In this document: positions 1,757-63,997 of the stretch, piece by piece
Position numbering within the stretch: position 1 is the stretch's first letter
Layout: every line of letters begins with the position of its first letter
Assembly (NCBI GenBank): GCA_022539475.1
Contig: VCMS01000100.1
Location: 353,315-417,314, forward strand
DNA from: Gracilaria domingensis
Taxonomy: Eukaryota > Rhodophyta > Florideophyceae > Gracilariales > Gracilariaceae
Length of the DNA stretch: 64,000 bases
Direction: 5' to 3'
Made by a program: the position numbers and the translations under genes
Notes under the pieces: generated by a model
What the model saw: the letters and a program-made list of their open reading frames with translations, nothing else
The model's database searches: none
Told to the model about the DNA's origin: nothing

Positions 1757-1762
<6 letters not shown>

Positions 1763-25819: not shown

Positions 25820-25855
25820 AGTCATGATCGCGATGATGACTTTATTTAGGGCGGA
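25802..25855. repeat. Inverted repeat with 20-bp arms
   Basis: The left arm 25802-25825 and right arm 25836-25855 are reverse complements (TCCGCCCTAAATAAAGTCAT), apart from an extra TAAA in the left arm. The loop is GATCGCG-like. It overlaps the end of the retroelement remnant and could be a fold-back footprint. Confidence 0.8.
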
Positions 25856-41878: not shown

Positions 41879-41881
41879 AAC

Positions 41882-41894
41882 TGGTCTCCCGACC
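41882..41894 (+). other. Primer-binding site of element 1
   Basis: TGGTCTCCCGACC begins three bases after the 5' LTR. A PBS starts with TGG because it pairs with a tRNA 3' CCA end. The matching tRNA would end GGTCGGGAGACCA; its identity cannot be decided here. Confidence 0.65.
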
Positions 41895-42042
41895 TAGAAT
41901 CGGCTTTATTGGCCAACAATCGTTGGAGCTGGTTCGTTTGTTTGGAGCCCAGATAGTTGGGAATATCCGTTCTTACGGTTCTCTCATTGTCCGTTTTCGG
42001 AAGTTGTTTTGGTTGCCCATTGGCCGACTGTGTCGGTGAACG

Positions 42043-44052: not shown

Positions 44053-44084
44053 GCAAGGGAGCCTCCAGCAATGGAGAGGCGCCC
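44043..44084 (+). promoter_or_regulatory. Candidate -1 ribosomal frameshift site (G AAA AAC UGA plus stem-loop)
   Basis: In the gag frame the last codons are CAG AAA AAC TGA. GAAAAAC resembles the AAAAAAC slippery heptamer. Seven bases downstream, GGGAGCCTC (44057-44065) can pair with GAGGCGCCC (44076-44084), with one mismatch, around a short loop. A second perfect hairpin (GAGGCT-GAGA-AGCCTC) lies at 44109-44124. The pol frame is -1 relative to gag and open across the gag stop, exactly as a -1 shift needs. Function is inferred. Confidence 0.6.
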
Positions 44085-47000
44085 CCAGCGACGGGGTTTA
44101 GTGCGCCTGAGGCTGAGAAGCCTCGCTCCTCGGTCACAATCCTTTCGAGGAAACTGGCCACTACAGACGTGGACTCTGAGCACCTTGGTGTCTTGCGTCG
44201 CCCGTGGATACGGTCTAAGAACAGCCGGTTCCCGGATAGAGTCCTGGTCATGGCGAAACGTAACTACAAAGTTTACGCCGACCTGGGTGTTTCCGACCAG
44301 TACATGGTTCGGCAGTTGTCCGTGCTCGATACAGGAGCTGGGCCAAATTTCTTGGTTGAATCGATGATTCCGCCGCACTGGCGGTCTCGCGTTCGTGCGG
44401 CGCCGCAGATTGACATAGCGGATGCGAACAATAGGCCACTTTCGACTGTGGGAGTAATAGACCTGCTCGTCAGGCTTGGCCGCTACGTGGCGAAGCTCGA
44501 TTTCTTGGTTTGCAAGCAACTCGCTGCGCCGGTTATCCTCGGCTGCGACTTCTGTGACCGCTTCGTCGATGCAATTCGACCGCGGAAGCGAACCATCGAA
44601 ATGGAAGATGGGACTACTGTACCGATCGTTCGGCGTCCCCTGCGCCGGGCTCTGAAGAAGCAAGTCCCTTTGCCTGCGGCACAGAAGCCTACAGCCGATG
44701 AACGGAAGTCTACAAAGCTCCGAGTAGCTCGGCCCATTTCCATCCCGCCTGAATCACAGGTCTGGGTTACTGTGACCTCCCCACAATGTGGCTTACAAAC
44801 GGTACAACCGTTGCCTGCGTTACAGGAGAAGCATCAGCTTGCCCTCGCTAATGGGATTGTTTTCGTCGAACCCGAGAAGCCTTTTCAGGTGCTGGTTGCG
44901 AACTTCAGCCGTTTTTCTCAACGGTTGGTTAGGAGCCAAGTTATTGGTTCGTTGCTTCCGCACCCTGCGGCTATAGTGCCTACTCAGGTTTCTATTGCCG
45001 AGGTTCTCGGAATCCTCGAAGCTGAGGAGGGGGAGGCGGAACGGAACAATTCCGAAACGAATACTGGACCGAACAGTTCGTCGGAAGATGCTACGCCGAC
45101 TTCGTCGGATGCAAATAACCGCACCCTGTCGAAGGAGGCAATGCCGACCTCGTCGGAGAGTAATGATACGGACCTGAGTGCTGCTGACACGAAGGATAAG
45201 GCAGTACAGGAACTGGAGTCTCTGGATCTTGAACATGTCCCAGAGACTCACCGCGATAAATTGCGGCACATGCTTGAGGAGTTCACGCCCATGTGGGATG
45301 GCACTCTGGGTAAGATTGGTATTACCGAACATCGGATTGATTTGCTACCGAATACTCGGCCCATTTCACAGCACCCTTACAGGGCAGGACCGACAGCTCG
45401 GCAGGAGGAGAAAGCTCAAGTTGAGAAGATGCTCCGCGCTGGAGTTATCGAGCCGGCTCAGTCACCTTGGGCATCGCCGGTGGTGCTCGCGCCCAAAGCT
45501 GATGGGTCTTGGCGATTTTGCATCGATTACCGCAAGCTAAACGCGGCTACAGTCAAGGATGTATATCCTATCCCACGAATGGATGAATGCATCGATTCGT
45601 TGGGCGACGCGAAAGTGTTCACAACCCTAGATGCGAATTGGGGCTATTGGCAAGTTCCCGTGAGGGCTGAGGATCGTGACAAGACAGCCTTCGTTTGTCA
45701 TGAAGGATTGTACCGATTCAATCGGATGCCCTTTGGGTTAACGAACGCGCCAGCCACCTTTCAACGAGCTGTGGATATTTTGCTAGCCCGCTTTAAGTGG
45801 AAGACTTGCCTGGTATACCTGGATGACATCATTGTCTACTCCAGCAACCTGGATGAGCACTTGACCGACGTACGGGATGTGATGCGAGTCCTACGCGATG
45901 CAGGCATTACGCTCAAGCTCAAGAAGTGTGAGTTCTTTACCGAAACCGTCAGGTATCTCGGCCATGTTATCCGTCCGGGACGGCTTTCGATTGACGAAGT
46001 ACGCGTGAAATCCCTCAAAGAGGCTAAGCATCCGAGGACGCAGACGGAACTCCGATCTTTTCTCGGCTTGTGCAATGTGTATCGCCGCTTCATTCCGAAC
46101 TTCGCGGATATCGCTGCACCTCTGAACGAGCTTCTTCGCAAAGGACAGCCAGTCGATCTGGAAGAATTCGACGACCGCAAGGTCGCGGCTTTCTCGTCGC
46201 TCGTGGACGCGGTGACATCGCCACCTGTTTTATCCCTGCCTAGGGCTGGTTTGCCATATGCAGTAGATACGGATGCGAGCGACTACCAAGTCGGCTGTGC
46301 CCTATTCCAGACCACCAATGATGGCGAGCGATTGCCAATTGGGTATTGGTCAAGAAGCCTCAACGTTCACGAGAGGAATTACTCGGTATCCGAGAAGGAG
46401 TGCTTAGCAGTTGTCTGGGCGTTACAGACACTGCGGCCCTATCTTATGGGGACCCGCTTCATTGTTCATACCGATCATTCGGCATTACGCTGGCTACTCT
46501 CTATAGCAGAGCCATCTGGCCGCTTGATGCGGTGGAGACTTCGCTTGTCGGAATTCGACTTCGAAATCCGTTACAAGAAAGGACTCCTGAACACTCAGGC
46601 TGATGCACTGTCCCGCTTGGAAACAGCGGCTGAAGCTGCGCCAGTCGATGATCTGGAGATATCGTGCTTCCTCGTGGAAGACGGCTCGAGCGATGCCGAT
46701 GAAGAATCGGAAGGATGGGACATCTACGATGCTGTTTTAGCCGTGTCAGACACGCAACCCGAACCGGGCTCTTTCGTACCGATCAAGCCGGAGGAACTCA
46801 TCCGGGAGCAGCACACCGACCGTTTTTGTACGGAGATTCGTAGTCGTCTAAACGGTGGAGCACAGTTGCCTTTCGTCGAGAACGACCAAGGATTTCTAAT
46901 CCGAACTGTCGGAAACAGGCCACAGATTGTGGTTCCGCACTCACTTCAGTCACGAGTACTGCATTTGTCGCACTATGCGAAGTTGTCAGCCCACCCTGGT

Positions 47001-49382
47001 GGCAGGAAGTTGTACTACACCTTACGGAAGGACTTTTACTGGCCAGCAATGGCTTTCGACGCGTATGCCACTGTTCGTGGATGTTCTGACTGCGCGAAGA
47101 ACCGCGTCAAGCTGCATAAGTATTCCAAGAAGTTGGCACTATTCCCTGCTAGGGCTCCACTGGAGTTTGTGGCGATCGATCTACTCGGCGAGTCTATTCG
47201 CACCCGCCGGGGAAACCGGTTTTTGCTTGTTATCACCGACCGCTTTTCTAAGCTGGTACGGACTGTGCCTTTAAAGAAGGTTACTGCTAGTGCGGTCGCC
47301 CAAGCTTTCGTTACTCACTGGGTTTTTGTCTACGGACCGCCGATTGACTTACTATCGGATAATGGACCGCAGTTCACGGCTAAGTTCTTTCAGGACGTAT
47401 GCCGCATCTTGCGGATCCAAAACTGGTTTACGACAACATATCATCCCCAGAGTAATGGGCAGGTTGAGCGTTTTAACCGCACGATGCTCAACGCATTGCG
47501 GACGTTTGTTGCCGAGCATCCGTCGGAATGGGATCAGTACACCGATGCGGTGACTTATGCCTACAATACGCAGGTTCATCGCACGACTCGAATCTCGCCG
47601 TTCGAGCTTGTGCTATCACGCGTCCCACCTTCGGTGGCTATCGAGCCACAGCCAACTTTGGATAAGTTTCCGTCGCCCCGTCTACACAGGGACGCCTGGA
47701 AGGACTGGCTTAAGAACATTATCCCTACAGTTGGGCAGCATATCGCTAAGGCCCAGGCCGCATACAAGCGGAATTTCGACGCTAGAGTGCGTAAGAATGC
47801 CCCTCAGATCAGGGAAGGTAGCTTTGCCTTCGTACGGAAGGAGTACTACAACCCTGAAAAGGAGAAGCGCCACAAGCTTTCTCCTATCGCGGACGGCCCG
47901 TTCCGGGTTATTGCTGTCACCGACACAACGGTTGTCCTTGATATCAAGGGAGAGCACGAGCGTTTGTCGCTAGATCGCATAACGCCCGCGCCAAAGCCTG
48001 TTTCGCAGGATTCGCTACCGTCATCGTCGGCCCCTACCGCACCCACTGTGGAAACAGCCGTCGAAACGGAAACAGACGCCGCGGCGGGTACTCGCACTCA
48101 ACCGTCTGTGTTGCCGCATCCGGATCGCGGACTTGCCCATTTGCCTGCTAAGCCGGAATCTGACCGGTCGGTCTCCAATGCCGCACATGTGCACACGCGG
48201 ATAAGGGCCCCTATGGGGATACTCGCCGCCACCCCCGACACTCCCACTGAGGAGGGGGAGGAGGCAGGTCGTTCTTTTTCGTTGTCGCCGTCGTCGACGG
48301 AGTCGCCTTCGCAGGCCTCTGTATCGCACGCAAGTCGTGATGAATGCACGTCAACGCGCGACACACAGCCGGAGAGCCGGAAAGAAGAGAACGACGCGCA
48401 GCTACCGCGGAAGCCTCAAGAAGAGCAAGATCACTGTCGCTCACCACCGCCGTCGCGAACGGAGTTACGTTTGCAGGCCCAAGAACGGGAACACAGTACC
48501 GATGTGGTACGTGATTTGCAGCCGGAAAGCCGGAGGGATCGCACAGTTTCGCGGAGGCCTTCTGAGAAGGACGCCACCTCGGTGACGATTGCAGCCGGAA
48601 GACCGGAAGAGAAGGACGCGCCGTTACCACGGAAGGCTGAGGTGGAAGGCACCACTATGGTGAATCGCAAAGCCGGAAGTCCGGAGAAAGAAGAGTTAGT
48701 TCGAAAAAACCGTGCTGTTACGGCAGACCCGACTTCGGGAGATTTTGGTGCAGCACCGAGTGCCAAAGCCGTCAAAAAGACGGAACCAACCACCAGTGTG
48801 GCGAACAGTCAAGCCACAGCAAGTGGGCAGCACTCAAGCACTGACGACGCGTGCACGTCGCGCCAAGTGTCGAGCTCCGTGGGAGATCCGCCTCCAACCG
48901 AGGATTACAATGCCCAAGCCGGGCACGTGCCAGCCACAGACCTGGCGCCGCCTAAAAACGGTTCAAAAAATTCCGAATTTGAATCGGCTCTTGACAGCCA
49001 TGCAAAGGCGCAGGTTCGCAAACCGCAGCGCGCGGCGAACCGCCGCCACGGCACGTGCCAGAACACCACTCGCTGGCTCACCGCTCTGCGGACCGTTCAC
49101 CGTCGCAACGGGAGATTGTGCCGGAACGCCGGAAGCTCGCTATTCGAGAAGACCGAAGCACGGTCACAGCCCAGCAGCATGGGGAGAAGAACCAGGAATC
49201 TGGAAGCATGGTGGTCAGGAAAGTACCATGGTCACGGAGACCAACGCCTGGCGTACAGGATGTACTGCCGTCAGGACGGAAGCCGATCACGAACGACGAT
49301 GCCCACGACGGGAGAAGCGACGACTACGCCTCGAAAGAGGATTCTTCAAGCAACCGCATACAGAGCGGAGTGTTCTCGATGA
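44049..49382 (+). CDS. pol: Pol polyprotein of element 1: protease, RT, RNase H, integrase
   Basis: The frame is open across the gag stop and runs 1,778 codons. Order by position: aspartic protease with LDTGAG (~44325); Ty3/gypsy RT with [12 protein letters not shown] and YLDDI (~45615-45830); RNase H with VDTDAS and ERNYSVSEKECLAV (~46265-46420); HHCC zinc domain (HLSHYAKLSAHPGGRKL ... GCSDCAKNR, ~46965-47105); integrase core with AIDLLGE, LLSDNGPQFT and NGQVERFNR, giving the D,D-35-E residues (~47175-47470); GPY/F-like module (ADGPFRVI, ~47890). About 450 further codons are low-complexity with repeated SRR/PEE and CCGGA-coded units. No stop or frameshift interrupts the enzymes, so this copy may be active. 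Confidence 0.95.
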   Translation: MSKGASSNGEAPPATGFSAPEAEKPRSSVTILSRKLATTDVDSEHLGVLRRPWIRSKNSRFPDRVLVMAKRNYKVYADLGVSDQYMVRQLSVLDTGAGPNFLVESMIPPHWRSRVRAAPQIDIADANNRPLSTVGVIDLLVRLGRYVAKLDFLVCKQLAAPVILGCDFCDRFVDAIRPRKRTIEMEDGTTVPIVRRPLRRALKKQVPLPAAQKPTADERKSTKLRVARPISIPPESQVWVTVTSPQCGLQTVQPLPALQEKHQLALANGIVFVEPEKPFQVLVANFSRFSQRLVRSQVIGSLLPHPAAIVPTQVSIAEVLGILEAEEGEAERNNSETNTGPNSSSEDATPTSSDANNRTLSKEAMPTSSESNDTDLSAADTKDKAVQELESLDLEHVPETHRDKLRHMLEEFTPMWDGTLGKIGITEHRIDLLPNTRPISQHPYRAGPTARQEEKAQVEKMLRAGVIEPAQSPWASPVVLAPKADGSWRFCIDYRKLNAATVKDVYPIPRMDECIDSLGDAKVFTTLDANWGYWQVPVRAEDRDKTAFVCHEGLYRFNRMPFGLTNAPATFQRAVDILLARFKWKTCLVYLDDIIVYSSNLDEHLTDVRDVMRVLRDAGITLKLKKCEFFTETVRYLGHVIRPGRLSIDEVRVKSLKEAKHPRTQTELRSFLGLCNVYRRFIPNFADIAAPLNELLRKGQPVDLEEFDDRKVAAFSSLVDAVTSPPVLSLPRAGLPYAVDTDASDYQVGCALFQTTNDGERLPIGYWSRSLNVHERNYSVSEKECLAVVWALQTLRPYLMGTRFIVHTDHSALRWLLSIAEPSGRLMRWRLRLSEFDFEIRYKKGLLNTQADALSRLETAAEAAPVDDLEISCFLVEDGSSDADEESEGWDIYDAVLAVSDTQPEPGSFVPIKPEELIREQHTDRFCTEIRSRLNGGAQLPFVENDQGFLIRTVGNRPQIVVPHSLQSRVLHLSHYAKLSAHPGGRKLYYTLRKDFYWPAMAFDAYATVRGCSDCAKNRVKLHKYSKKLALFPARAPLEFVAIDLLGESIRTRRGNRFLLVITDRFSKLVRTVPLKKVTASAVAQAFVTHWVFVYGPPIDLLSDNGPQFTAKFFQDVCRILRIQNWFTTTYHPQSNGQVERFNRTMLNALRTFVAEHPSEWDQYTDAVTYAYNTQVHRTTRISPFELVLSRVPPSVAIEPQPTLDKFPSPRLHRDAWKDWLKNIIPTVGQHIAKAQAAYKRNFDARVRKNAPQIREGSFAFVRKEYYNPEKEKRHKLSPIADGPFRVIAVTDTTVVLDIKGEHERLSLDRITPAPKPVSQDSLPSSSAPTAPTVETAVETETDAAAGTRTQPSVLPHPDRGLAHLPAKPESDRSVSNAAHVHTRIRAPMGILAATPDTPTEEGEEAGRSFSLSPSSTESPSQASVSHASRDECTSTRDTQPESRKEENDAQLPRKPQEEQDHCRSPPPSRTELRLQAQEREHSTDVVRDLQPESRRDRTVSRRPSEKDATSVTIAAGRPEEKDAPLPRKAEVEGTTMVNRKAGSPEKEELVRKNRAVTADPTSGDFGAAPSAKAVKKTEPTTSVANSQATASGQHSSTDDACTSRQVSSSVGDPPPTEDYNAQAGHVPATDLAPPKNGSKNSEFESALDSHAKAQVRKPQRAANRRHGTCQNTTRWLTALRTVHRRNGRLCRNAGSSLFEKTEARSQPSSMGRRTRNLEAWWSGKYHGHGDQRLAYRMYCRQDGSRSRTTMPTTGEATTTPRKRILQATAYRAECSR

Positions 49383-49584
49383 GGAATATGTCATTGACCG
49401 TCTGGTAAGTCACGGCTACGCCCCTGACGGGGAACTACTGTATCGAGTCCGTTGGTACGGCTACGCCTCCTCAGAGGATACGCACGAGCCCATTGAGCAC
49501 TTGCCTCGCTCGAAGGTCTTGCAGTACCACCGTCGCACACGGACACCGATACCGGCTACGCTGGACAAGGCCCAAGTGGGTTGA
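48712..49584 (+). CDS. Third-frame ORF of element 1 with C-terminal chromodomain
   Basis: Only the last ~70 codons look functional: EEYVIDRLVSHGY ... LLYRVRWYGYASSEDTHEP and IEHLPRSKVLQYHRR form a chromodomain (aromatic Y/W/Y positions of the methyl-lysine cage family retained). It lies in the +1 frame relative to pol and overlaps pol's low-complexity tail. Chromodomains of gypsy chromoviruses are normally fused to the integrase C-terminus and steer integration to marked chromatin. Here expression would need a second frameshift, splicing or reinitiation. Element 2 shows the same net +1 frame offset, so this is unlikely to be a chance mutation. Confidence 0.75.
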   Translation: MLLRQTRLREILVQHRVPKPSKRRNQPPVWRTVKPQQVGSTQALTTRARRAKCRAPWEIRLQPRITMPKPGTCQPQTWRRLKTVQKIPNLNRLLTAMQRRRFANRSARRTAATARARTPLAGSPLCGPFTVATGDCAGTPEARYSRRPKHGHSPAAWGEEPGIWKHGGQESTMVTETNAWRTGCTAVRTEADHERRCPRREKRRLRLERGFFKQPHTERSVLDEEYVIDRLVSHGYAPDGELLYRVRWYGYASSEDTHEPIEHLPRSKVLQYHRRTRTPIPATLDKAQVG

Positions 49585-50046
49585 CCACCCACGTTCCTAT
49601 TGAGCGCAGCCGTCTCGGACGGAATATGCCGCCTCATGCGGACAGTATTGCATTACGCAAGAATATGCCGCGTCAAGCGGGTGCAACTAAGTTAACTTGA
49701 GATCACTCAGCCGCCTCAGGCGGACCAGGCCGCTCTAAGCGGACAGCTTTTTGCTGAACAAACATGCCGCGAAATGCGGAAGCCACTTACAGTGGAGAAG
49801 AAGATAAAGAAGAAAGAAGCCTAAGAAGAAGGAGAAGAAGCCAGGACACTGGAAGGAAGACTAAGAAGTTTTATCGCTACAGCCGCTTGTGCGGAAAAGT
49901 TACCCCTCTCTTGTGGGCCATTCGCAACAGCCTCAAACGAGGTATTGCCCACTGAGAAGGGGGAGAGCAAGACGAAGAGTTTGAGCCAAGCCAGCACGGC
50001 TGGAGAAGTTTACCTCTAACTATTGAGTCGCCCCTCATCATCGGGG
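49576..50046. other. Array of short hairpins between convergent sense and antisense genes (element 1)
   Basis: At least 13 short perfect inverted repeats occur about every 30 bp. Six share CCGC-n4/5-GCGG (49629-49641, 49668-49680, 49711-49723, 49730-49742, 49767-49779, 49883-49894). Others are CAGC-TTTTT-GCTG, CCACT-TAC-AGTGG, CCAG-GACA-CTGG, CCTC-AAAC-GAGG and CCAGC-ACG-GCTGG. A GAAGAA-rich purine tract runs through 49795-49870. It lies exactly between the sense stop (49584) and the antisense stop (50092). It could terminate or insulate convergent transcripts, or act in RNA packaging. Confidence 0.75.
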
Positions 50047-50091
50047 TCTATCGCGGACTACCGTAGCCCGTCGGGGATCGCGAGCCGGGAA

Positions 50092-51891
50092 TTACGCGCC
50101 GGACGGTCCAGCACCTGGGGTGCCCCCACTACCGGGAGCCCCGGAGAAGCGCTGTGCCGCTATTGCTTGCAACTCCGACTCGTCGGTCACCGTATCGGGA
50201 ACGGCCACTCCCACGCCTCGAAGGAAGTCGCGAATGACCGCCGCTCGCGGAGTGAGAGAAGAACTGCCGCCCACGGCGGATGCTACATCCTGAGCCCACG
50301 GGCCGGTCGGAGCGGGAGCCGCTACAGCGGGTGGGTCAACGATCACGACTTCGTCGTCATCTCCCGTAGCGTCGGGCTCCGAGGCAACCCCCACTGGGCT
50401 CCCCTCATCCATGGGACTTCCTCCCTCTGCAGGGTCATCACCGTCATCGTCGACGTATACGAACCCACGCGGGTGCCCTTCCGGGATATATCGCTCCTCT
50501 CGGCGGCGACCAGCCGCCTCAGCGGGGCCAATTACCTCCCAAATCCATGGGTCAAAGTATACGAAGTCGCCGGCGTTGACGTTCCGTCCGGGAGAACGGT
50601 CCGACTGCCGACGGACTCCGTCGGAAACCTGACTAGCAGGCACCTCATTCCAGTCAATCTGGTCAATGACGTCCACCAACGCGGTGGCTTCGCGCGCATT
50701 GCGGACCGAGCCGAGCACTTCGGAGAGATCCAACGCTCGGATCGCTTGCCGGATGAGTTCCGGGATGAACCAAACTCGGTACGAATCATATGCCTCGATG
50801 AGGAGGAAAGCCGCAACGCGGACGGTCCATTCTGTTGCCAGGATGCTCCACAGGCCGCGAGGCGGATCGTTCATGAAGTACGAGCCTATGTAAGTTAGGC
50901 AGGGCGGTAGCTCTACGTGACACCCTCGTGGGACTTCGACCGCAGGCCAGAATGACGGCAGCGGCAGGTATCGCCCAGTATGGGAGTGACGCGCAATGCG
51001 TTCCACCTCCGTGCACTGGTACGGCACCAGTACCCCGAAGCGGGAACGCCATTTCCTCTCGAATCGGAGGCCTTCATGAAATTGAGACCGTCCAGGACGG
51101 CGAAGGAACCGGAACTCGGCGCGAAGGATCGGCCGCGCCCACAGGATCAACTCCTGCTGCGGCTGAACGGTATCCGAATATCGGTCAATTTCGTCCAACG
51201 CGTTGGCTAGGTGGTCGCCGTAGCCGACCTCGCCGAAAGTTCGGTAACGTGCCACATCGTACTGGTACTGTGCCGGCACCGGATGTTCGTTCGGAGCTCG
51301 GAAGTGTCGCGCGTACCCAATGCGGGCCATCTCATTGCGAGCGAATTGTCTCGTCTCGTTTCGACCTACAAACAGGCAGCTCGGTATAACCGCAACGCGG
51401 GCGATCCAGTCCCATGAACGGGTAACGTCAGCAGGAAGCCCACCAGGGAGTTGACCGTCGACAGCGTACGAGTCGACGAGCTCTGTATCCCGAACGGCTT
51501 CGGCGTCAAACCAGGGAGCCTGGGCAAAAAGGAAACTGTGCCGGTGCGGATCCCGGATGCGTAAGGCGCCTGCGGTAGGCCATCCACCCAGCGTAGCTGG
51601 CATCTCGGCGTTGAACCAATCCCACACGGGCGCGGGACCAGCCTGAGCTGGAGCGTGATCTTGTCCGGAAGAACCCGGCTGGGAGGCAGCCGCCGACTGC
51701 GGGAGAGGTACAGACCGGAACGGCGGGTTCGACACTTGCATGCGTGCCGTCGAGGACGGAGGGCCGTTCGGTGCGTTGGACATCGCGGAAGGGCTCGAGA
51801 TGACGAGGTTCGCTACTGACACCGGAGGTGTTGGTGGCTCCGAACAGTTCTCGGCAGACCCGTCTTGGGAGACTTCCTTATATCCCTCCAT
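50092..51891 (-). CDS. Conserved antisense ORF (aORF) of element 1, unknown function
   Basis: The product is 599 aa on the strand opposite to gag-pol, starting 54 bp from the 3' LTR. I recognise no known domain, signal peptide or membrane helix. The N-terminal ~90 residues are Pro/Ser-rich. The core (residues ~105-420) is dense in W, R and F, and aligns block by block with the antisense ORF of element 2 (LPGGLP, YRTFGEV, RPILRAEFR, ELPPCL.YIGS, RVAAFLL, EAYD.YRVW.IP, DRSPGR). After ~450 it is acidic and Pro/Gly/Ala-rich, ending in a Gly/Ser/Pro tail. Its start lies next to the polypurine tract and LTR, so its promoter is probably in the LTR or directly inside it. The frame is complete. Confidence 0.85.
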   Translation of the reverse strand: MEGYKEVSQDGSAENCSEPPTPPVSVANLVISSPSAMSNAPNGPPSSTARMQVSNPPFRSVPLPQSAAASQPGSSGQDHAPAQAGPAPVWDWFNAEMPATLGGWPTAGALRIRDPHRHSFLFAQAPWFDAEAVRDTELVDSYAVDGQLPGGLPADVTRSWDWIARVAVIPSCLFVGRNETRQFARNEMARIGYARHFRAPNEHPVPAQYQYDVARYRTFGEVGYGDHLANALDEIDRYSDTVQPQQELILWARPILRAEFRFLRRPGRSQFHEGLRFERKWRSRFGVLVPYQCTEVERIARHSHTGRYLPLPSFWPAVEVPRGCHVELPPCLTYIGSYFMNDPPRGLWSILATEWTVRVAAFLLIEAYDSYRVWFIPELIRQAIRALDLSEVLGSVRNAREATALVDVIDQIDWNEVPASQVSDGVRRQSDRSPGRNVNAGDFVYFDPWIWEVIGPAEAAGRRREERYIPEGHPRGFVYVDDDGDDPAEGGSPMDEGSPVGVASEPDATGDDDEVVIVDPPAVAAPAPTGPWAQDVASAVGGSSSLTPRAAVIRDFLRGVGVAVPDTVTDESELQAIAAQRFSGAPGSGGTPGAGPSGA

Positions 51892-51931
51892 CGCGAGGCG
51901 TATCGAGCCGACGGAGTCGGTGTCTCAGCCT

Positions 51932-51944
51932 GAGAAGGGGGAGA
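51932..51944 (+). other. Polypurine tract of element 1
   Basis: GAGAAGGGGGAGA abuts the first base (TGTAG) of the 3' LTR, the expected position for plus-strand priming. It also forms part of the leader of the antisense gene. Confidence 0.9.
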
Positions 51945-52801
51945 TGTAGAGCAAAACGCCCTTTGTGGGGATGCACCGAGGTGCTTTTCATAGTTTGTTG
52001 ATCCGTTACCGGCTTCGACACCTCAGGTTATGAGAGGCTACTGGGGTAGTGCCCCTATTTTGGGGTATGCCTAGGAAGGGTAGTATTTCTGCACACGTGT
52101 GCCAAGTTGGCCCGATCGCGCGGGCCCCGTGGCAAGCATGCCACGGGGGCACACCTGTAGTGTATTGGCCGGCAGCGCCGGATAGTTAGATATTTTAATT
52201 GATATTTTCAAGTGCCGTATATAAGTGGCGGCACTTGCCGCCACTGTACGGGAAGTAAACCTCAACGAGGCCTTTGGCTCTGATCTTCTTGCCGCTTGCG
52301 CACGGTCACCAGCCCCATCCTGGGGAATACCGCCGCAATTCCGGGCTGATCAACCAACCTCCGTCCCTGAGGAGTACTAATCCGTCGTCACGGCACTTTT
52401 CTTATCTATTTTATTGTTTTCATTTCCGTCTTACGGCTTTCGCTACTCTGCCCTACATTGTAGGTTTATTTTATTTGTCTCGGGAGTTTTCCCGCTTATC
52501 GCGAGTCAGTGCTCCGCAGTGCGGCTCGTTTGTTGATCTTTTGTCGTCCCATACCGTTGGGCTGGATACCCCCACTCGCTGTGGCTCGCCGGAACCATCC
52601 GGATACCTACGCCGATTCTACCCCTTCTACCTCCGACTGCACGCCCAGATCGGGGCCACCCGGATTTACACCCGGCTCGTGTTGGCCCTATCGGAGGGTT
52701 CTGCCGCTCGACTGCCCTTCACAGGGAGCAGGGCCTGAACACCCTGAGGTGCTCGTCCGCGACGCGGTTTGTTGTTTTCCCGTCGAGGGTTTTGCACCAC
52801 A
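51945..52801 (+). repeat. 3' LTR of element 1 (857 bp)
   Basis: Same length as the 5' LTR. By eye two differences: C to G in CACACGTCTGCC versus CACACGTGTGCC, and G to A in GGTTTGTTTTA versus GGTTTATTTTA. It is followed directly by the target duplication GTGTG. Confidence 0.95.
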
Positions 52802-52806
52802 GTGTG
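52802..52806 (+). repeat. Target-site duplication GTGTG (right)
   Basis: Matches the five bases before the 5' LTR (41017-41021). Confidence 0.9.
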
Positions 52807-53855
52807 CAGTTGAGGACTGGAATGTCAATGGCTCAGGGTGTACCACCTAATAATGCTATGGGTCCGAATTCAGTTCTGAATGTAGCTCCCAATGGAAACC
52901 CCTCAAACCCTGCCATTAACCGTATAATCGGAGAAACTCCAGCTACTTCGGGTTCACAGATTTATAGTTCTCTTCTTAATACACGGAATATGATTAACAT
53001 AGCTGCAGCTTTTGGGTTCTATACAGCCAGGTCTGTCTCTAGCGGCTCCTCGAACTATTGCCGCAGAATCCCAGACTTCAACAAGAGTGACTGGACCGGA
53101 GCCACGTGCCCATGACAAAGACACAACCACTGGAAATGTTTTAGACAATGGAAGCAATGTTGTAGCCGGAGTGCTCACAGCAATCTCCCAGGTAAAACGG
53201 TATGGAGCCGAATGCTGTTGATATGATCGGGCTTAAGGCAAACAAGCTTCCGGGGGGTGCGGTAGGAGTCGGAGGTTTTGCTAATAGAGTCGGTATGAAC
53301 GTCATGGGCGGAAAAGATCAGGCTTTGTCAACCAATACGGTCGGACACCAGGCTGGATATGTTCCAACTCCGATTGGCGCTGTTCCTCCGACGACGCCTC
53401 CAGCGACGAGCGAGAGACGTTTGTGGATGGGAACAATATGCGTGTGGGGCAAAGCTGCGACACATAAAGTACACTGTGTTGCTATATCAGGAACGATGAA
53501 AGGACAACCACCCATCTAAGATACCCGCACTTGGTCCAAACGATTAGATTGCAATCATGACAAGATGCGAACCTTGGATCTGCCTGAACTGTCAGGGGCC
53601 CAGTGGTATGCTCGTTTCGTACTTGTTGATGAGACTGGCAGAGAATTTGCCAACAGTAGAGTGACAAATGATCTTGTTAAGGTGATGCTTCAAAGTAAAC
53701 TGGGGTTTAGGATTCGATGCAGAGAAGCAGAAGGAATTCCTGGTTCGTTGCTGCTGTTCAGAAAGAGACTGGGTGCAGACCTACTGAGAATTCTCAAACC
53801 GAACACCGATACTGACGTTATAATGATGATGGACAACATCGCTCGAAAGCAGTAA
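52807..53855 (+). pseudogene. 3' part of the host gene split by element 1
   Basis: Counting one copy of the target duplication, the frame from 40545 continues here as VQLRTGMSMAQGVPPNNAMG without a break. Further coding-like pieces follow in changing frames: DKDTTTGNVLDNGSNVVAG, MIGLKANKLPGGAVGVGG, RRLWMGTICVWGKAATHK, then MRTLDLPELSGAQWYARFVL to IARKQ at 53852. The changes may be short introns (a GTAAAA-type donor follows ISQ near 53191). A Met/Gly/Asn-rich body with a C-terminal LW-G module recalls Mediator-type coactivators such as MED25, but I could not confirm this. Confidence 0.5.
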
Positions 53856-55487
53856 TCTAGAAACTGCCACACGTCATCATCCAGTTAGTGTATGTCCATT
53901 ACATAGTTCGCACTCTAACAATTGGAATTGAATTGTAAAGTTTTCTCAGTGTTGTAGATAACTAACAAGAGCTCTTTCTCCAAGTGAGGTCACCAAGTTT
54001 CTAAATCACAAACTGACTTTTTACTGATCAAGATGTGTAGCTGTTTCATTCTCAGTACAAGAGAGCTACCGTTGTGCTGAGCTCGTTGCTAAGGGCAACT
54101 CGTTTCAGTGTATTGTGACACCATATCCCAGAGGAGCTGAAAGGTTTACATGAATTCACAGGGAACGAAAGCTTGATAACTACAATCACATGAACAGGAT
54201 ACGGAGGCACGTTCTATTCTCAGGTCTCCGCGTAAATGGCTGTACAAACTTCGTTCAATGCTCTGCGTCGTATACATGGATATCGGGCTAAGTATATGTT
54301 GCCCACTACGACATCAATAATTCTCCGACCTATAACAAAAGCGCACGCGAGGTTACCGTCATATTGAGTGGCACTTTATGTACTGAGCAATGGATTTGGA
54401 TATCTGGACAAGTCTGAACCATCTGAGACGCGAGCAACAGTTCCTCGATTGGTGGTGCGCACCTGAAGCTTTCCAGCTACAACGAGGGGCAGAGATTGAT
54501 TGGCGCAAAAGAGAAGTTGAGTATTTCTGCGACTTACAATCAGAAGAGGATGAAAGATTTGCCATAACAAAGCCAGCAGCCTGGCTGAAATGAGTAAGCG
54601 AGAGGTATGAAATAGATGTAGAAAACCAAGGACTAAGTCAGATATAAAACTCCTGTCCAAAGCAGTGGAAACTGTGTGACCATTGGCACTACCGGAAGCA
54701 GAGATGGTAGCAGTGTCGGATGTAGTCTTCGAACTCTTGCCGTCACAGTTGCTCGTCTTGCACTTTTCGAAAAGCCAACTATTGGTAATGCGTTGGTGTG
54801 AGAGGCGGACCACGACTGGTCACAAGAGACCCGGGAGAGGAACGCTAACTCCGCGACGCATGAAACATAAAGCTGAGATATCTGAAAGCAAGAGTACCCA
54901 CCGATGCCACACTCTCAGCTCCTCTTGTTGAGATTTGCCGCTTCATGATCCAAAACATGTATTCCCGAAGTACAAAATCGAGGTGGAGCTGCAGGCAGTG
55001 CGAATTAACCGGGAAGTGTGGACGTGTCGCCCAGCGGAATTTCCAAGACCGAGTGGCAGCACTAGAGTAAAACACGCGCTTTATACCGCACAAGCATCAT
55101 GATGATCATCATCTCTCTCTCTCTCTCTCACCGTCGACGATGTGAACGTCTGCAACTAGGCTGCTCCCAGCTTGGGAGTCCAAAGAATGCAATGGTGGGC
55201 AAAGTCATACTCGCAGTCCAATTGTTTGCAGTGGCTCATCCGACAACGTGAAATGAGGTCTCCTTCGCCTCAATCTGCCTTCAACCCCCCTCCTCCTCGA
55301 ATTGAATGTTGCCAGACATCCTCTCTGTCATAGGTCCCACTCTCGGGTTGCAGCCGCTATCCCCGACAATCACATCGTCATTGGGCATAGTCTCCTCACC
55401 ATCTTGAAAAAACTTTGCCGCCAGTATCATCGCATCTATCGCGCAAGAATAGTCATAGTTCCTCGCCTGTCCGTCCTTGACCACAAG
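53856..55487. other. Intergenic, weak coding hints only
   Basis: The best candidate is the plus frame 54390-54593 (67 codons, EQQFLDWWCAPEAF ... EYFCDLQSEEDE), protein-like but without known relatives. A minus frame 55281-55484 is similar in quality. A CATCATGATGATCATCATCT cluster followed by (CT)n sits at 55095-55127. Confidence 0.4.
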
Positions 55488-55916
55488 TCACTTCCATTGT
55501 AGAAACGTCACGAGGCACATAATAATGGTAATTATCGTAGCCACTCCAGCGGTGAATAAGAACAGAGGTACTGAAACCTCCGTTTCGTGAACTTCCCTAT
55601 CCAGTACTTCAAGCGGTTTGTTTTTAACTACGCTCAATAATGACATTGCGATGGTGAAAATCAATGTGACAAAGTCCAGCAGAGATGTGAGACATGCTCT
55701 TTCTTTCGACGTTATACCGTAGTCCGCAAGACATGAAAGCCGACTGGTTGTGAGGCCTAGGGATTGTGCGCTGTTATGTAGATCCTTTAGGTTGTGTGTA
55801 CGTATGTACATTTGTAGAGCAAAACCAAAACATTTCCAAAGGTGACTACATACAGTCCACTCACGAGGTTTGAGTGTGCCGAGATTATCATCGCATCTTG
55901 CACTACGTTTCAGCAC
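55488..55916 (-). CDS. Hypothetical small membrane protein
   Basis: A 142-aa frame with two hydrophobic segments near the C-terminus (FVTLIFTIAMSLLSVV and VPLFLFTAGVATIITIIMCL), separated by a charged loop. No family is recognised. It may be one exon of a larger gene, and could be chance. Confidence 0.3.
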   Translation of the reverse strand: MLKRSARCDDNLGTLKPREWTVCSHLWKCFGFALQMYIRTHNLKDLHNSAQSLGLTTSRLSCLADYGITSKERACLTSLLDFVTLIFTIAMSLLSVVKNKPLEVLDREVHETEVSVPLFLFTAGVATIITIIMCLVTFLQWK

Positions 55917-56220
55917 TAAGAGGATAAATTCGATATTCCGTCTGGCCTAGTTGTTTGAGTGCTAACAAAACTGGTTGAAAAAGAGATTCTGAAAAGTGAA
56001 ACGCTTTCATTGGTACCACTTGCGAACCAATACCCCGCAAACCAGTTTGAACACGCGATTGTGCGAGTGGCTCATAAGTTAGCTATATCTCCCGACTGCC
56101 AGCAACCTCGGTAGCCAAAACAGAGCCCACCTTGGTTCTATCGCCCAAGTCACCTTTTGCAGACACAGACCCCAAAGTTTTGTCACTAATACACTGCTAA
56201 ACGGTTCTCTAGACACAAAT

Positions 56221-56812
56221 TCAAAGCATCTGAATTGCTTCAGAGGTAGAGACGAAACCAGACTCCCAGTTCTCGAGCTCATCCAATTCTAGCTCCTCGC
56301 CGAAGTCGTCAGACATACCATAAGAGATGCTCTCGTCGTCCAAAAACCTCGAGTACATCCGCCCACTTGTTTCTGCTTCACCCGTTTCCGGGTCCATCGT
56401 TTGGCGTACATTACCAAACCTTAGCTCCGTGTACCCCTCCATATCGAGCTTCTTCACAGTTTTGTTTCGAGTCCGAAATAGAGACTCATTGAACGCACAG
56501 AAGATTAGCTTAGCCACTTTCTTTGGTTGCAAACGGTTGCGTGCTGGTGTTCTCACTCGACCCTGAAAACTAAAACTGCGCTCAATGTGGGGCAAACTCG
56601 GAAGAGTGAAACCCACCAGACTGTCCGAAGGTCCGCTCTCGTGAGAGATGGCAGACCAGTGACAGAGCCCTCTGTACCACCGTAACTCGGTTGTAAGGCC
56701 GAAGTGGCAACTGGCTATACCTACAGAGGTGCTAGGCCACGTGGTGAGGAAACGATGAGAAACTCCAGAGATGGGGTGGTATCGGCAACGATGAAACACG
56801 ACCAACGACAGG
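56221..56812 (-). CDS. Possible 3' coding part of a host gene flanking element 2
   Basis: The minus frame leaves the LTR at ~56812 and becomes protein-like after RVRTPARNRLQPKK: VAKLIFCAFNESLF, LDMEGYTELRFGNV and the acidic end DDFGEELELDELENWE. If real, element 2 inserted into or next to this gene. No family recognised. Confidence 0.3.
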
Positions 56813-57559
56813 TGTAGTCCCGAGAGGGAAAGCAACAGAAAACAACAACCAAACAACACCCACACGCGACGGGTAGGGCCTCCTCGGCACTGTGCCCGGA
56901 GCGGGGCGAGATCCTCCAACGGTAATGCACGGGTTTCCGTAAACACGGCAAAACTCTATACAGAGTCGGATCACTTCGTAATCTAGTCCTATACCTCCTC
57001 GGTACGACCCTCAGGTCCCGACATCAACGACAGATGTTCCTCAAAGGTACCGAGAGGGTAGGACCACCGTAACCAGACGTGGCTATACTCGCGAGAGTGA
57101 TAACCCACGTAGGCGGTTGGCGCCAGAGCCTCACTCGTGTAGAGTCCACTCAGGAGAGCGCTACTCGACAAAGAGTTCACTTAGAAGTGCTCGGGTTGAC
57201 TTTACAAAGGTGCTCGCGACGACGAGGTCGAGCTCACCTAAGTAGGTCTAAACTAACTATGTACATGTGGTGCACACCCGCAGGGGTCCGTACACGTGGC
57301 TAGCCCAGTGTCAGGCACCTCAGGTGCACTACCTATTGTCCCGTAATATGCACACACACGGTGGTGTAGTACACGCGTCCACCTAGCGGTATTGGCCAGC
57401 AATGGCAACCCTGATTACAGGTAACTGTGGGAAAGCCATTCCAAAAGTAACCGCCAAAATTGGGTCCAACTCATAACTCTTCGAGTGCATCCTCGTATCA
57501 CTCCCCTGAGTATATGAGGCGCATCATCCTGATAACCACGCAAAATGCGTTGCTCTACA
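56813..57559 (-). repeat. 3' LTR of element 2 (start firm, end tentative)
   Basis: On the minus strand, TGTAGAGCAACGCATTTTGC starts right after the polypurine tract, like TGTAGAGCAAAACGCC in element 1. The proposed other end is CTACA at 56813, giving TGTAG...CTACA inverted termini and 747 bp. The 5' LTR is outside the window, so the end cannot be proven. Confidence 0.55.
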
Positions 57560-57572
57560 TCTCCCCCTCCTT
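57560..57572 (-). other. Polypurine tract of element 2
   Basis: On the minus strand AAGGAGGGGGAGA directly precedes the LTR start, closely matching the tract of element 1. Confidence 0.85.
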
Positions 57573-57638
57573 AGAGCCGAGAACGACTTCGAGGCTGAAG
57601 TTTTGTGCGAAACGCAAGTACGTAAATACGTCACAATC

Positions 57639-59492
57639 ATGAGCGGTACCAACTCCTCGGTTTCTATACCTCGCAAGCGCGATACACACTCAAGCGAACA
57701 GAGTATTCAAGTATCCGAACTCGATCACAGTACATCATCTGTCATTCCGATGAACCCGAATCAGTTTCCTCATCACCCGACGGGTCAGGCGAGCGCGTCG
57801 AACTACCCTCAGCCGGGTTCTGCGACGGCTCCACTGCCTCAGTCTCAACCGATGGTCCCGGTGAACGTTCCGTTATGGAATTCAGCGCAAGCGATGCCGC
57901 TGATGGCGAACCAAGCTGGTTGGATATCGAAGGAATCTCTCGCAGTACGCGATCCACTCCGTGATGGGTTTGCGTTCAGCCGTGCACCGTGGTTTCATCC
58001 GGTAGCTGTTAACGATGACACTCTCCTGGAGTCGTATGCCGAAAACGGCTTCCTACCGGGCGGTCTGCCGTTAGCGGTAGTGCAATCCCCAGAATGGAAA
58101 GTTCGTATAGCGATCGACCCGATGCTCCTCCGGTACGATACCCGCGAGGGTGAGAACCTGAACACCGCGCGCGCGGAACACGCGAAGTTGGCGTACAAGA
58201 GACTCAGTCGAGTGCACCTCGAGCACCTGGTTCCACCGTCATATGGGTTCGATACTCCGTTCTACCGTACTTTCGGTGAAGTCCGATATGGAGACAACTT
58301 GGCGACGTTCGACCATGCGCGGTACGCTGGCGATGGCCCGACCACATCGAGGTTGATGTTGTGCTGGAATCGGCCCATACTCCGAGCGGAGTTCCGTTAT
58401 CTTCGCAAGAACGCTTCCCAGGGTGGGTTCGTCAACCGCATTCGGTTTGAGCGGAAAGCTCGTTCCCGTCATGGGTATCTGATTCCGTACCCGAATATCG
58501 AGACCGAGAGGTACAGACCGCAGGCCTTTGTTGGACGGTTCCCTCCTCTACCAGATTGGTGGCGTGATGTGGAGGTACCCAAAGGGTGTTTTGCAGAACT
58601 GCCTCCGTGCTTGAGTTACATCGGCTCCCGATTGATCAACGATCCGCGTTCAGGATGGTGGGGTCTCGTAGCCGGCGAGTGGGCGGCACGCGTAGCAGCG
58701 TTTCTTCTCTGGGAGGCTTACGACAACTACCGTGTTTGGTATATTCCGCCGATGCTTCGCAGCATTATCCGCTCGCTGGATTTGCACACTCCCTTGGGGT
58801 CCGAAGAGAACGTGGATGAGATCCATTACATCTTGGATGTTATCGATGGAGTCGATTGGGAAACGGTGCCCCGTTCGCAACGCGGGAAAGGTCCTCGTCG
58901 TCACTACGACCGCTCACCCGGTAGGAGACATCCCACAGCAGAAGATTTCGTGTATTACGACCCATGGGAGGGTACGATGACGACTAGCGCATATGCCGAG
59001 TGGGCAGCGAACCAGCCACGGTCGATTCCAGACAGTCACCCCGTTGGGTTCATGTTCAGTGACAACTGGGTCGCCCCAGTAGATCTGGATGATCCGAACA
59101 TGGATACTGGTGGAGAGGCAGCTGGAGCACTCGTCGAGATGGACCAGAAGTTGGTGAACGACCTACCGGCGGCGAATCAGGTGTTGCACGCCAGCGGCGG
59201 GGTACCCCAGGCTCCTGTGGGTTGGAATGTTCCGACTCAAGCGAGTGTTCCGGTGGTGGGTCCGGTCCCTGTAGCGGCTACCGTTCCTTCGGTCCTTCCG
59301 GCCCCGACAGCTCCGGTCGCTCCGGGAGATTCTCCGGCGAACATCGCGATGTTGCGCGCCACTCTCCAGAACGCTGGAATTATCGTGCCCGATCATCTCA
59401 CCACTATGGCAGGGATACTGGCTTACGCCGTTCCGCACCCTTCGCAGGGTCCCTCCGGTAGCGGCGGTGCCGGTCCCTCATCGGGGGTGTAA
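57639..59492 (+). CDS. Conserved antisense ORF (aORF) of element 2, unknown function
   Basis: The product is 617 aa from the ATG MSGTNSSVSIPRKR, 80 bp inside the LTR/polypurine boundary and antisense to the element. The frame is open a further 12 codons upstream. It is homologous to the 599-aa product of element 1 along the whole core: RDPLRDGFAFSRAPWF, FLPGGLP, YRTFGEVRYGDN, RPILRAEFRYLRK, RFERKARSRHGYLIPY, ELPPCLSYIGS, RVAAFLLWEAYDNYRVWYIP, DRSPGR, EDFVYYDPW, and the C-terminal GPSGSGGAGPSSGV. Sequence has diverged strongly between the two, yet indels are few and both frames are whole. No known domain is recognised. It survives although pol of the same element is broken. Confidence 0.85.
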   Translation: MSGTNSSVSIPRKRDTHSSEQSIQVSELDHSTSSVIPMNPNQFPHHPTGQASASNYPQPGSATAPLPQSQPMVPVNVPLWNSAQAMPLMANQAGWISKESLAVRDPLRDGFAFSRAPWFHPVAVNDDTLLESYAENGFLPGGLPLAVVQSPEWKVRIAIDPMLLRYDTREGENLNTARAEHAKLAYKRLSRVHLEHLVPPSYGFDTPFYRTFGEVRYGDNLATFDHARYAGDGPTTSRLMLCWNRPILRAEFRYLRKNASQGGFVNRIRFERKARSRHGYLIPYPNIETERYRPQAFVGRFPPLPDWWRDVEVPKGCFAELPPCLSYIGSRLINDPRSGWWGLVAGEWAARVAAFLLWEAYDNYRVWYIPPMLRSIIRSLDLHTPLGSEENVDEIHYILDVIDGVDWETVPRSQRGKGPRRHYDRSPGRRHPTAEDFVYYDPWEGTMTTSAYAEWAANQPRSIPDSHPVGFMFSDNWVAPVDLDDPNMDTGGEAAGALVEMDQKLVNDLPAANQVLHASGGVPQAPVGWNVPTQASVPVVGPVPVAATVPSVLPAPTAPVAPGDSPANIAMLRATLQNAGIIVPDHLTTMAGILAYAVPHPSQGPSGSGGAGPSSGV

Positions 59493-61227: not shown

Positions 61228-63997
61228 CTACCCGCGTGGGTGATTCTGACTTCGGTAGATCCGATAACCGCGATCAGGGCGGAGAGTCGCAGGGCGCGAA
61301 GATACGACCTGTTCGTCCCCTGTAGCTTTACCCAGTTGGGTGTTAACGTGAACGTACGGTGGTGGGGCCAGCGCGACACGGTCTAACGATATCCGTTCGT
61401 GGAGATTATTGATATCCAATACTACTGTATCGTGCGTGACGGAAATAACCTTGTAGGGTCCTTCCGCGATAGGCGAGAGCTTGTGGCGGCGTTCCTTCTC
61501 CGGATTATAGTATTCTTTGCGGAGAAATACCATATCGTCTGGTTTGACCTTTGGTAATGGGGTCTTAACCTTCGCATCGAAGTTGCGCTTATAAGCGGCC
61601 TGCGCCTTATTCATCGCTGTGCGAGCGACCGGTACCATTTTGGTTAACCAATCCTTCCAAGCGTTCCTGTATAACCCAACAGACGGGTACGTAGAAAGCG
61701 TTTCTTGAGCCTCGATTGCAACCGGTGGCGGTACTCTTGACAATACCAACTCAAAAGGTGCTAGCTTCGTTACCCGGTGGACTTGGGTGTTGTACGCATA
61801 CGTAATAGCGTCCGTATACAAATCCCAATCCTTAGGATGATCTGCCACATAAGATCTTAATGCATTCAGCATGGTACGGTTAAATCGTTCTACCTGACCA
61901 TTTGTTTGGGGGTGGTAGGTGGTCGTAAATAGATTCTTGACACTCAAGATCCGACAGACGTCCTGGAAAAACTTCGACGTGAACTGTGAACCGTTATCTG
62001 ATAATAGATGAACCGGTGGACCGTACACAAAGACCCAGTGGGTGACAAAAGCTTGTGCAACCACGGTGGCCGTAATCCGTTTCAGCGGGACTGTCCGTAC
62101 CAACTTAGAGAACCGATCGGTGATAACCAGAAGGTATCGATTACCTCTTGCGGTTCTGATCAATTCACCTAAGATATCGATAGCGATAAACTCCAAAGGA
62201 GACCGTGCTGGGAACAGCGTTAACTTCTTCGAGTACTTACGAAGTTTCACGTTATTCTTAGCGCACTCGGTGCAAGAGCGTCGTACTGCGTAGCAGTCCA
62301 ATGCCATTGACGGCCAGTAAAAATCCCTACGCAGGGTCAAGTATAGTTTTCGACCTCCTGGGTGGGCTCCTACCTTCACATAGTGTGTCATGACCAACAC
62401 ACGGTTTTGCAGCGAGTATGGGACCACAATTTGGGTATACGCTTCGACCAACCTAACCAGGTACCCCTGATCGTTAACCTGAAAAGGTAACGATCTCCTC
62501 CATTGAGACGAGCGCGAATTCGCGTACAAAACTCATCCGGTTGCTGTTCTCGGATCATCTCCTCGGGAGTGATGGGTACAAAAGATCCAGTCAAGGGATC
62601 CAACTTCTCAGAAGTGAGCAGGATGTCGTCACAGATGTCATCCGACAAAGATTCGACCCAACCTGCTTGTTCTTCCACCATAAAGCATGGTATGTCCAGA
62701 TCGTCAACTGGTGCCGCTTCTGCATCTGTCCCAAGCGGGAGAGTGCATCTGCCTGCAGATTCAACGTTCCTTTTTTGTACGTAACTGTGAAATCGAACTC
62801 CGATAACCTCAAGCGCCAACGCATCAAGCGTCCTGATGGTTCCGAGATTTCCATGAGCCATCGGAGAGATGAGTGGTCCGTATGTACCGTAAAATGGTTG
62901 CCCATAAGATATGGCCTCAGTGTAGTTAGAGCCCATACAACGGCTAAGCACTCTTTCTCCGAAACTGAGTAGTTACGTTCGTGTACGTTCAAGGATCGCG
63001 ACCAGTATCCAATTGGATGTCTCACGCCGTCTTCCGTGACCTGAAACAGGGCGCAACCAACCTGGTGTGCACTGGCGTCAGTGTCTACTTCGAATGGAAG
63101 TCCTAGCTTAGGCAAAGCCAAGATTGGCGGTGACGTTACTGCGTCAATTAATGCCGAAAAGGCAGACGCTTCCGCGTCGCCTAGGGGTTCCAGTTGAACT
63201 GGTTGACCTTTTCTCAAAAGGTGGTTAAGGGGGTCGCAATATCTGCGAAGTTCGGGACAAAACGCCGATATACATTACAAAGACCCAGAAAACTGCGGAG
63301 TTCCGTTTGTGTCGTAGGGTGTTTCGCTTCCTTCAGCGACTTCACGCGAACTGCGTCAACTGAGAGCTGTCCAGGTCGAATGATATGCCCTAGGTATTTG
63401 ACAGAATCTGTGAAGAACTCGCACTTCTTGAGTTTCAGCGTAATGCCCGCGTCCCTGAGGACTCTCATGACGTCCCGGACGTGTGTTAAGTGGTCATCAA
63501 GGTTATCGGAGAACACGATGATATCGTCAAGATACACCAAGCAGGTCTTCCACTTGAATCGAGCCAAGAGGATATCGATAGCACGTTGAAACGTAGCCGG
63601 TGCGTTGGTTAATCCGAACGGCATTCGCTTAAACCGGTACAAACCTTGGTGGCACACAAAAGCAGTTTTGTCCTTATCCTTTTCACGGATCGGAACTTGC
63701 CAGTATCCCCAATTGGCATCCAAGGCGGTGAACACTGTAGCACTCCCAAGCGAGTCAATGTATTCGTCCATCCTGGGTATGGATAAACGTCTTTGACGGT
63801 GACCGAATTTAGACGACGGTAATCAATACAGAATCGCCACGATCCGTCCGCTTTTGGAACTAGCACCACGGTGAGGCCCAAGCGGATTGAGCCGCCTCTA
63901 TGACGCCAGCGCGTAACATCTTCTCAACTGAGATTGCTCTTCTTCCCTAGCTTTGGACCAGCGCCGGTATGGGTGTGGAAATGGGCTAGTTACCTGG
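61228..63997 (-). pseudogene. Broken pol of element 2 (RT, RNase H, integrase)
   Basis: RT motifs [32 protein letters not shown] and YLDDIIVF, RNase H VDTDAS and EKECLAVVWAL, the HHCC domain (THYVKVGAHPGG ... SCTECAKNN) and the integrase core (AIDILGE, LLSDNGSQFT, NGQVERFNR) are all present, but in different frames. Breaks lie near 63772, 63215, 62750 and 62480. Each is consistent with loss of a single base relative to element 1. The integrase frame itself (62529-61228) is whole. Several same-direction 1-base losses could be real decay or an assembly artefact. Confidence 0.85.

Follow-up and report, generated by a model that had tools for sequence, protein, structure and literature searches.

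Antisense open reading frames (ORFs) placed between pol and the 3' long terminal repeat (LTR) are known from plant Ty3 elements (PMC11963269), among which the protein of the antisense accessory ORF (aORF) of Grande has been reported to be nuclear (PMC7264820) and that of Retand has been predicted to bind DNA (PMC11963269). By description, the HBZ gene of human T-cell leukemia virus 1 (HTLV-1) and the APH-2 gene of HTLV-2 are similar in being antisense genes on the 3' LTR side (PMC11963269, PMC7264820). Here we describe two divergent Ty3/gypsy elements, each with an antisense aORF, in the 64,000-nucleotide stretch of DNA given above (the window), which forms the terminal part of contig C100 in the genome searched (77.9 Mb, 680 contigs). 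These aORFs are real protein-coding accessory genes under purifying selection; the antisense aORF is a type known in plant Ty3 elements, represented here, in red algae, by a protein family for which no known relatives were found. A sequence-only reading of this DNA had proposed that such a gene may be undescribed; none was indeed found for red algae in the open-licence papers surveyed, mostly as titles and abstract openings, but antisense aORFs at such a place are known in plants.

With regard to Retand-type plant aORFs, the likeness is one of position, an antisense ORF lying between pol and the 3' LTR in both. The plant aORF, however, is characterized by Transposase_28 (PF04195), which had zero matches in seven algal aORF proteins at E<=1, and Retand is described as a non-chromovirus, whereas the algal element has a chromodomain. 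A second comparison, in working principle only and implying no kinship with the aORF, may be made with VANC and the VANDAL DNA transposons of Arabidopsis (PMC5735166, PMC10398659), which also encode an extra protein and have dense, family-specific short signatures in their own DNA. The VANC21 motifs are fixed 9-mers, often in tandem repeats in non-coding regions, whereas the algal signatures, described below, are hairpins of variable letters in coding as well as non-coding parts.

Element 1 is a complete Ty3/gypsy element (41022-52801) with LTRs, target-site duplication, primer-binding site, polypurine tract, gag, pol and a chromodomain ORF; element 2 mirrors this layout in the opposite orientation. 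The features, in window positions, are:

41017..41021: target-site duplication GTGTG, left copy (5 bp; identical bases follow 52801)
41022..41878, plus strand: 5' LTR of element 1, 857 bp, TG...CA, with 2 mismatches versus the 3' LTR
41882..41899, plus strand: primer-binding site TGGTCTCCCGAC..., found in all three families
42040..44052, plus strand: gag ORF, with a C-X2-C-X4-H-X4-C knuckle (motif by eye)
43884..49382, plus strand: pol ORF (reverse transcriptase, RNase H, integrase), overlapping gag in a different frame
48700..49584, plus strand: chromodomain ORF (Pfam Chromo, 1e-7), in a frame different from pol
49585..50091: linker between the chromodomain ORF and the end of the aORF, with 12 CC..GG hairpins, a G before each
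50092..51891, minus strand: aORF1, antisense accessory gene, 599 codons plus stop
51936..51944, plus strand: polypurine tract adjoining the 3' LTR, GGGGGAGA in families 1 and 2, GGGGGAAA in family 3
51945..52801, plus strand: 3' LTR of element 1, 857 bp, presumed site of an antisense promoter
52802..52806: target-site duplication GTGTG, right copy
56587..57559, minus strand: 3' LTR of element 2; the tip lies at 57559, and the other end is an estimate based on how long the LTRs of the C62 copy are
57639..59492, plus strand: aORF2, antisense accessory gene, 617 codons plus stop
61228..63822, minus strand: fragments of element 2 pol, distributed over several frames and truncated where the contig ends

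Both antisense ORFs are present where they had been claimed (599 and 617 amino acids), and their position between the chromodomain ORF and the 3' LTR was confirmed for both elements as well as for a third family, which the sequence-only reading had missed and in which the aORF is antisense in the identical position. Their starts are indeed near the LTR, at distances of 53 and 79 bp by the coordinates, where 54 and 80 bp had been given. By BLASTP, the two proteins share 239 of 600 residues (40% identity, E 1e-118), in an alignment that contains all six of the previously quoted blocks (LPGGLP, YRTFGEV, RPILRAEFR, ELPPCL, RVAAFLL, DRSPGR), so that conservation between the two elements at the protein level is upheld. 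The accompanying statement that LTRs and linkers have diverged almost completely was overstated, since the primer-binding site, the polypurine tract and the LTR tip TGTAGAG are common to families 1 and 2.

The assignment to a chromodomain Ty3 lineage stood up to Pfam analysis. As the named protein relatives come from Gracilariopsis chorda and Agarophyton chilense, the host very probably belongs to the red algae, within the Gracilariales. The pol ORF matched RVT_1 (7.2e-37), RT_RNaseH (7e-36), Integrase_H2C2 (3.8e-12) and rve (6.7e-10), and the order of reverse transcriptase, RNase H, integrase and chromodomain is that of chromodomain-type Ty3/gypsy elements. Since the chromodomain lies outside the pol frame, a second frameshift, splicing or a start of its own would be needed for its expression. 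The gag ORF had no Pfam match over the cut-off, and was named from its place, its knuckle and its kinship, i.e., 58% identity over 325 amino acids with family 2 (plus a further stretch of 119 amino acids at 33%) and 50% over 650 amino acids with family 3. Rfam returned zero matches above threshold within 40500-64000.

The contig ends at window base 64000, within element 2, whose 5' LTR therefore lies outside the window. A second family-2 copy, on contig C62 (L010, L052), has the full layout, with LTRs of ~973 bp that are 99.4% identical. The gag-pol regions of element 2 and of the C62 copy are each spread over several frames, whereas the aORFs are intact; in other family-2 copies pol does have long open frames, of up to 1573 amino acids. 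The family-3 element, on contig C14 (L033, L053), has an aORF of 681 amino acids that starts 79 bp from an 816-bp LTR. The layouts of families 2 and 3 were pieced together from separate sequence stretches. Identity between families, measured over the main blocks, is 59-69% in pol, 50-58% in gag and 40-41% in the aORF.

The sequence-only reading had also named, as an outcome that would refute it, a match to a captured host fragment present only in these two copies; the gene is in fact spread more widely, with at least 73 genome matches for aORF1 and at least 71 for aORF2, the third family, and relatives in other Gracilariales. In the search with protein P0005, 38 third-family rows outranked the family-1 rows among the matches listed. 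Outside this genome, seven clear relatives, known as proteins only, were retrieved from ~5.8 billion proteins, with 8000 candidates scored in each search: P0003 of Gracilariopsis chorda, P0006 and P0007 of Agarophyton chilense, and P0004, P0005, P0009 and P0010; an eighth row, P0011, was marginal (E 0.21). The linker had 40 genome matches, and a listed aORF adjoins 33 of these; three of the other seven were inspected, and all three have an aORF that is frame-shifted, truncated or diverged. As a separate observation, in some family-1 copies, e.g., those at C100:236604-242561 and C15:4493-10450, the pol piece is only 94% but the aORF 99% identical to that of element 1; judged by sequence, the 3' module of such copies looks to have been shuffled between pol lineages, or swept.

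Selection on the aORF was measured in family 1 on the window copy, taken as reference, and 10 copies from the linker list having a full-length aORF match; two of these (L064 and L065) are identical, leaving 10 distinct copies, and the choice was not wholly blind. Among the distinct copies, variants shared between copies comprised 12 synonymous and 2 nonsynonymous changes, a nonsynonymous to synonymous polymorphism ratio (pN/pS) of 0.057, whereas singleton variants comprised 37 synonymous and 51 nonsynonymous changes (pN/pS 0.469), with 4 stops. With the identical pair retained, the shared variants numbered 14 and 4 (pN/pS 0.097). The low shared and higher singleton ratios imply that the gene is constrained during replication of the element and is free to decay later. 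The ratio of nonsynonymous to synonymous divergence (dN/dS, omega), for which the sequence-only reading had named values near 1 across many copies as refuting, was likewise below 1 in pairs of subfamilies, namely 0.19 for L001/L034, 0.24 for L001/L035, 0.34 for L009/L038, and 0.27 and 0.28 in family 3. Differences by codon position favor the third position (e.g., 14/14/55), and between families protein identity is still about 40% with synonymous sites saturated. The frames on the opposite strand contain 7, 13 and 16 stops over aORF1, and 12, 26 and 16 over aORF2. An earlier dN/dS sample, consisting of the copies with the best protein scores, was dropped because it was biased to low pN (family 1 pooled 0.083).

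The protein consists of a variable N-terminus, a conserved core (approximately residues 105-480 of P0001), a low-complexity stretch that is acidic and, at the C-terminus, a short part that is helical. Many invariant arginines are found in the core, including the arginine-rich run RPILRAEFR...ERKxRSRxG..., and a 50-residue arginine block carries a net charge of +7, +8 and +10 in P0001, P0002 and P0008, respectively; the most acidic 50-residue block carries -7 to -15 in the proteins measured. As had been noted from the sequence, the protein cannot be assigned to a family, there being no match in Pfam or in structure searches, and searches of viral and family libraries yielded no relative. An env-like extra ORF was also considered; such ORFs are in sense with gag-pol, and the aORF is antisense in all three families.

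A second property of these elements, missed in the sequence-only reading, is a dense population of short hairpins. A hairpin was counted as each CCNN...NNGG placement of 11-16 nt in total, overlaps included, and expectations were taken from second-order Markov sequences, with the following result for element 1:

41022..52801: element-wide short hairpins, 243 CC..GG placements versus 25.1 expected (z 48.7)

The hairpins are dispersed over gag, pol, aORF, linker and LTR. The family-3 pieces contained 105 CC..GG placements versus 14.5 expected and 31 versus 6.4, and the family-2 pieces 30 versus 14.3 and 22 versus 7.6; family 2 has a form of its own, with stems starting in AC (84 versus 15.8 expected in the larger piece). 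Four 10-kb host stretches outside the elements had 8-18 CC..GG placements versus 9.5-14.9 expected, the host pieces of 1-40000 showing no excess except 20001-30000 (18 versus 10.8), and four copia loci had 1-7 versus 1.8-3.5. Counting all 4-bp stems, the excess was 1.96-2.35 fold in the elements, 1.27-1.66 fold in the four host stretches (z 7.5 for 1-20000 and 2.6 for 20001-40000) and 1.07-1.22 fold in the copia loci. Two other Ty3 loci showed little or no excess over all stem types (L058, 92 versus 84; L060, 83 versus 79). A third locus, L059 (C90:58171), does show the hairpins, and it holds a family-3 aORF stretch, near or inside which lies an integrase-type match belonging to a different Ty3 element. 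When synonymous codons were shuffled within ORFs, keeping protein and codon usage, the excess over the shuffled sequences stayed in 9 of 9 pieces (z 4.2-22.4), and there was none in copia L056 or Ty3 L058; the frame taken for one host stretch in this test contained 29 stops, and that stretch has no value as a coding control. In window positions 1-40000, stems of 6-7 bp closing a loop of 0 or 1 nt, and stems of 6 bp closing a loop of 3 nt, are over-represented, a class unlike the element hairpins.

The form of the hairpins is specific to the family. The stem foot is CC in families 1 and 3 and AC in family 2, and the spacing peaks at CC-N9-GG in family 1 (144 versus 58), CC-N6-GG in family 2 (116 versus 53) and CC-N8-GG in family 3 (128 versus 56). 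Complementarity at inner positions 3 and 4 reaches 67% of cases in family 1, 56% in family 3 and 41% in family 2, versus ~24-29% expected. In families 1 and 3 the bases flanking the stem are often mispaired, in a pattern that again differs between families. No clear preference of the hairpins for a codon phase was found. In the open-licence papers surveyed, mostly as titles and abstract openings, no retrotransposon saturated with short hairpins was found.

Taken together, we favor, at a probability of about 0.4, an explanation in which the product of a selected antisense gene is a nuclear protein that binds nucleic acid and acts on the element encoding it. An antisense transcript would have its start within the 3' LTR or close to it, 53-79 bp upstream of the aORF start codon; its protein would, with less certainty, be nuclear and bind the nucleic acid of its own element, and would probably either sustain expression of the element in the face of host silencing or control its own expression. 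Nucleic-acid binding is suggested by the arginines together with the reports that other antisense aORF proteins are nuclear or predicted to bind DNA, and on these grounds the protein is tentatively, at a little under even odds, viewed as a nucleic-acid-binding regulator. The family-specific hairpins are candidate recognition sites for the aORF protein or for Gag; that the aORF protein in particular targets them is doubtful. A broader proposal, which we regard as rather unlikely, is that hundreds of short hairpins form a family-specific code with which the clade marks its whole genome, coding parts included, and that the aORF product or Gag would read this code to distinguish its own element from others, in anti-silencing or in packaging; with the same reserve, the code would consist of CC..GG stems with mispaired flanks in families 1 and 3, and of AC..GT stems in family 2. 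If true, this would be a self-recognition system spread through coding sequence by synonymous codon choice. If confirmed, the hairpin signature would mean that synonymous sites hold a second layer of information that extends over the whole element and is specific to the family, and would offer a concrete candidate for how an element recognizes its own nucleic acid. The puzzle of antisense accessory genes, known from flowering plants and fungi, is extended to red algae, and a gene present in many copies, on which selection can be measured, provides material with which the function of such genes can be tested.

Several observations weigh against this explanation or parts of it. Other within-family pairs gave omega values of 0.31-0.74 (e.g., 0.69 for L009/L025 and 0.61 for L034/L035), which we read as decay of old copies. 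The shared ratios of the sense frames over the aORF were 1.9, 0.10 and 4.6, and since one of these is as low as 0.10, the ratio alone cannot separate frames; that value arises because the wobble positions of this frame coincide with those of the aORF, and the frame was ruled out as a gene, having 13 stops and a longest open run of 112 codons. Among the matches listed, which are ranked by score and therefore favor intact copies, the family-1 aORF was less often stop-free (52 of 73, 71%) than a 744-amino acid pol piece (51 of 60, 85%); in family 2 the aORF was stop-free somewhat more often (51 of 71) than a 750-amino acid pol piece (39 of 60). As to the protein, the case from charge is weak, the arginine block carrying only +2 in P0003 and +5 in P0006, and searches with the aORF protein gave neither a DNA-binding family match nor a PDB relative, and the two AlphaFold2 models were too weak to provide a reliable fold. 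As to the hairpins, G-U pairs were not clearly preferred to A-C pairs, which makes an ordinary constraint from RNA folding of one strand less likely, and the association of hairpins and aORF is known from one clade.

One alternative, which we hold to be somewhat improbable, concerns the hairpins, which could be a functionless product of a mutation process, namely intramolecular template switching of the reverse transcriptase. Such a process would fit stems that are Watson-Crick without G-U excess, as well as the hairpins of some family-3 subfamilies that differ by 3-4 stem bases at once; the milder 4-bp stem excess of the host stretches (1.3-1.7 fold) implies, in addition, that part of the effect may be general. 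It does not readily account for a stem foot and mispaired flanks that are specific to the family, nor for the little or no excess in two other Ty3 and four copia loci. Moreover, hairpin placements of families 1 and 3 coincide at 22 of 88 in pol (6.4 expected), 11 of 37 in gag (3.5) and 9 of 40 in the aORF (2.8), in a test that did not fully control for conserved amino acids. Variants shared among family-1 copies fell in stems at 1 of 335 sites and outside at 16 of 1282, while singletons fell at 18 of 335 and 58 of 1282, respectively; shared variants are thus rarer in stems and singletons are not, a pattern more suggestive of selection than of a mutation coldspot, albeit on small numbers. The low substitution rate in family-3 stems was set aside as weak evidence of constraint, because choosing intact hairpins already halves the expected rate.

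It is also conceivable, if unlikely, that the aORF protein acts as a cofactor in structure or replication, in particle assembly, in packaging or as a chaperone of cDNA or RNA, with the hairpins as multiple packaging or condensation sites for it or for Gag. The distribution of hairpins over all parts of the element, the zinc-knuckle-like motif seen by eye in gag, and a strand bias of the flanks in family 1 (G..A versus its complement T..C, 44:16 in gag-pol and 9:0 in the linker) are all in keeping with such a role. Against it, the two flank forms are near equal in the family-1 aORF (9:7) and in the 5' piece of family 3 (C..T 22, A..G 19), tolerance of G-U pairs is not clear, and it would be unusual for a particle protein to be produced from an antisense transcript of its own. 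That the antisense transcript matters and the ORF is a passenger, the transcript pairing with genomic RNA and limiting copy number, is a role in which antisense RNAs have been discussed for other elements (PMC7264820), but the amino-acid constraint (shared pN/pS and third-position excess) and the roughly 40% protein identity across families despite saturated synonymous sites render it very improbable. Equally improbable is a captured host gene hitch-hiking without a role in the element, as might be proposed from the lack of relatives in the viral and family libraries, in view of its identical place in three families, its constraint, its relatives in other Gracilariales, and the fact that the copies whose surroundings were inspected all lie within elements, even if a single-copy homologue could rank below the matches listed.

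Outside the elements, the window contains a possible lytic polysaccharide monooxygenase gene at 15953-17371 (LPMO_10, 23.5 bits against a cut-off of 23), in which HGHGAM follows a signal-like start, as judged by eye. Three co-directional ORFs at 22289-23869, 26338-27879 and 34305-36032 have weak APH-kinase matches (E 3.4e-4, 2.2e-4 and 2.7e-5, respectively), of which only the last is over the cut-off. A MYND-finger ORF (32605-33672; 1.8e-8) lies among them, and together these ORFs perhaps form a local gene array.

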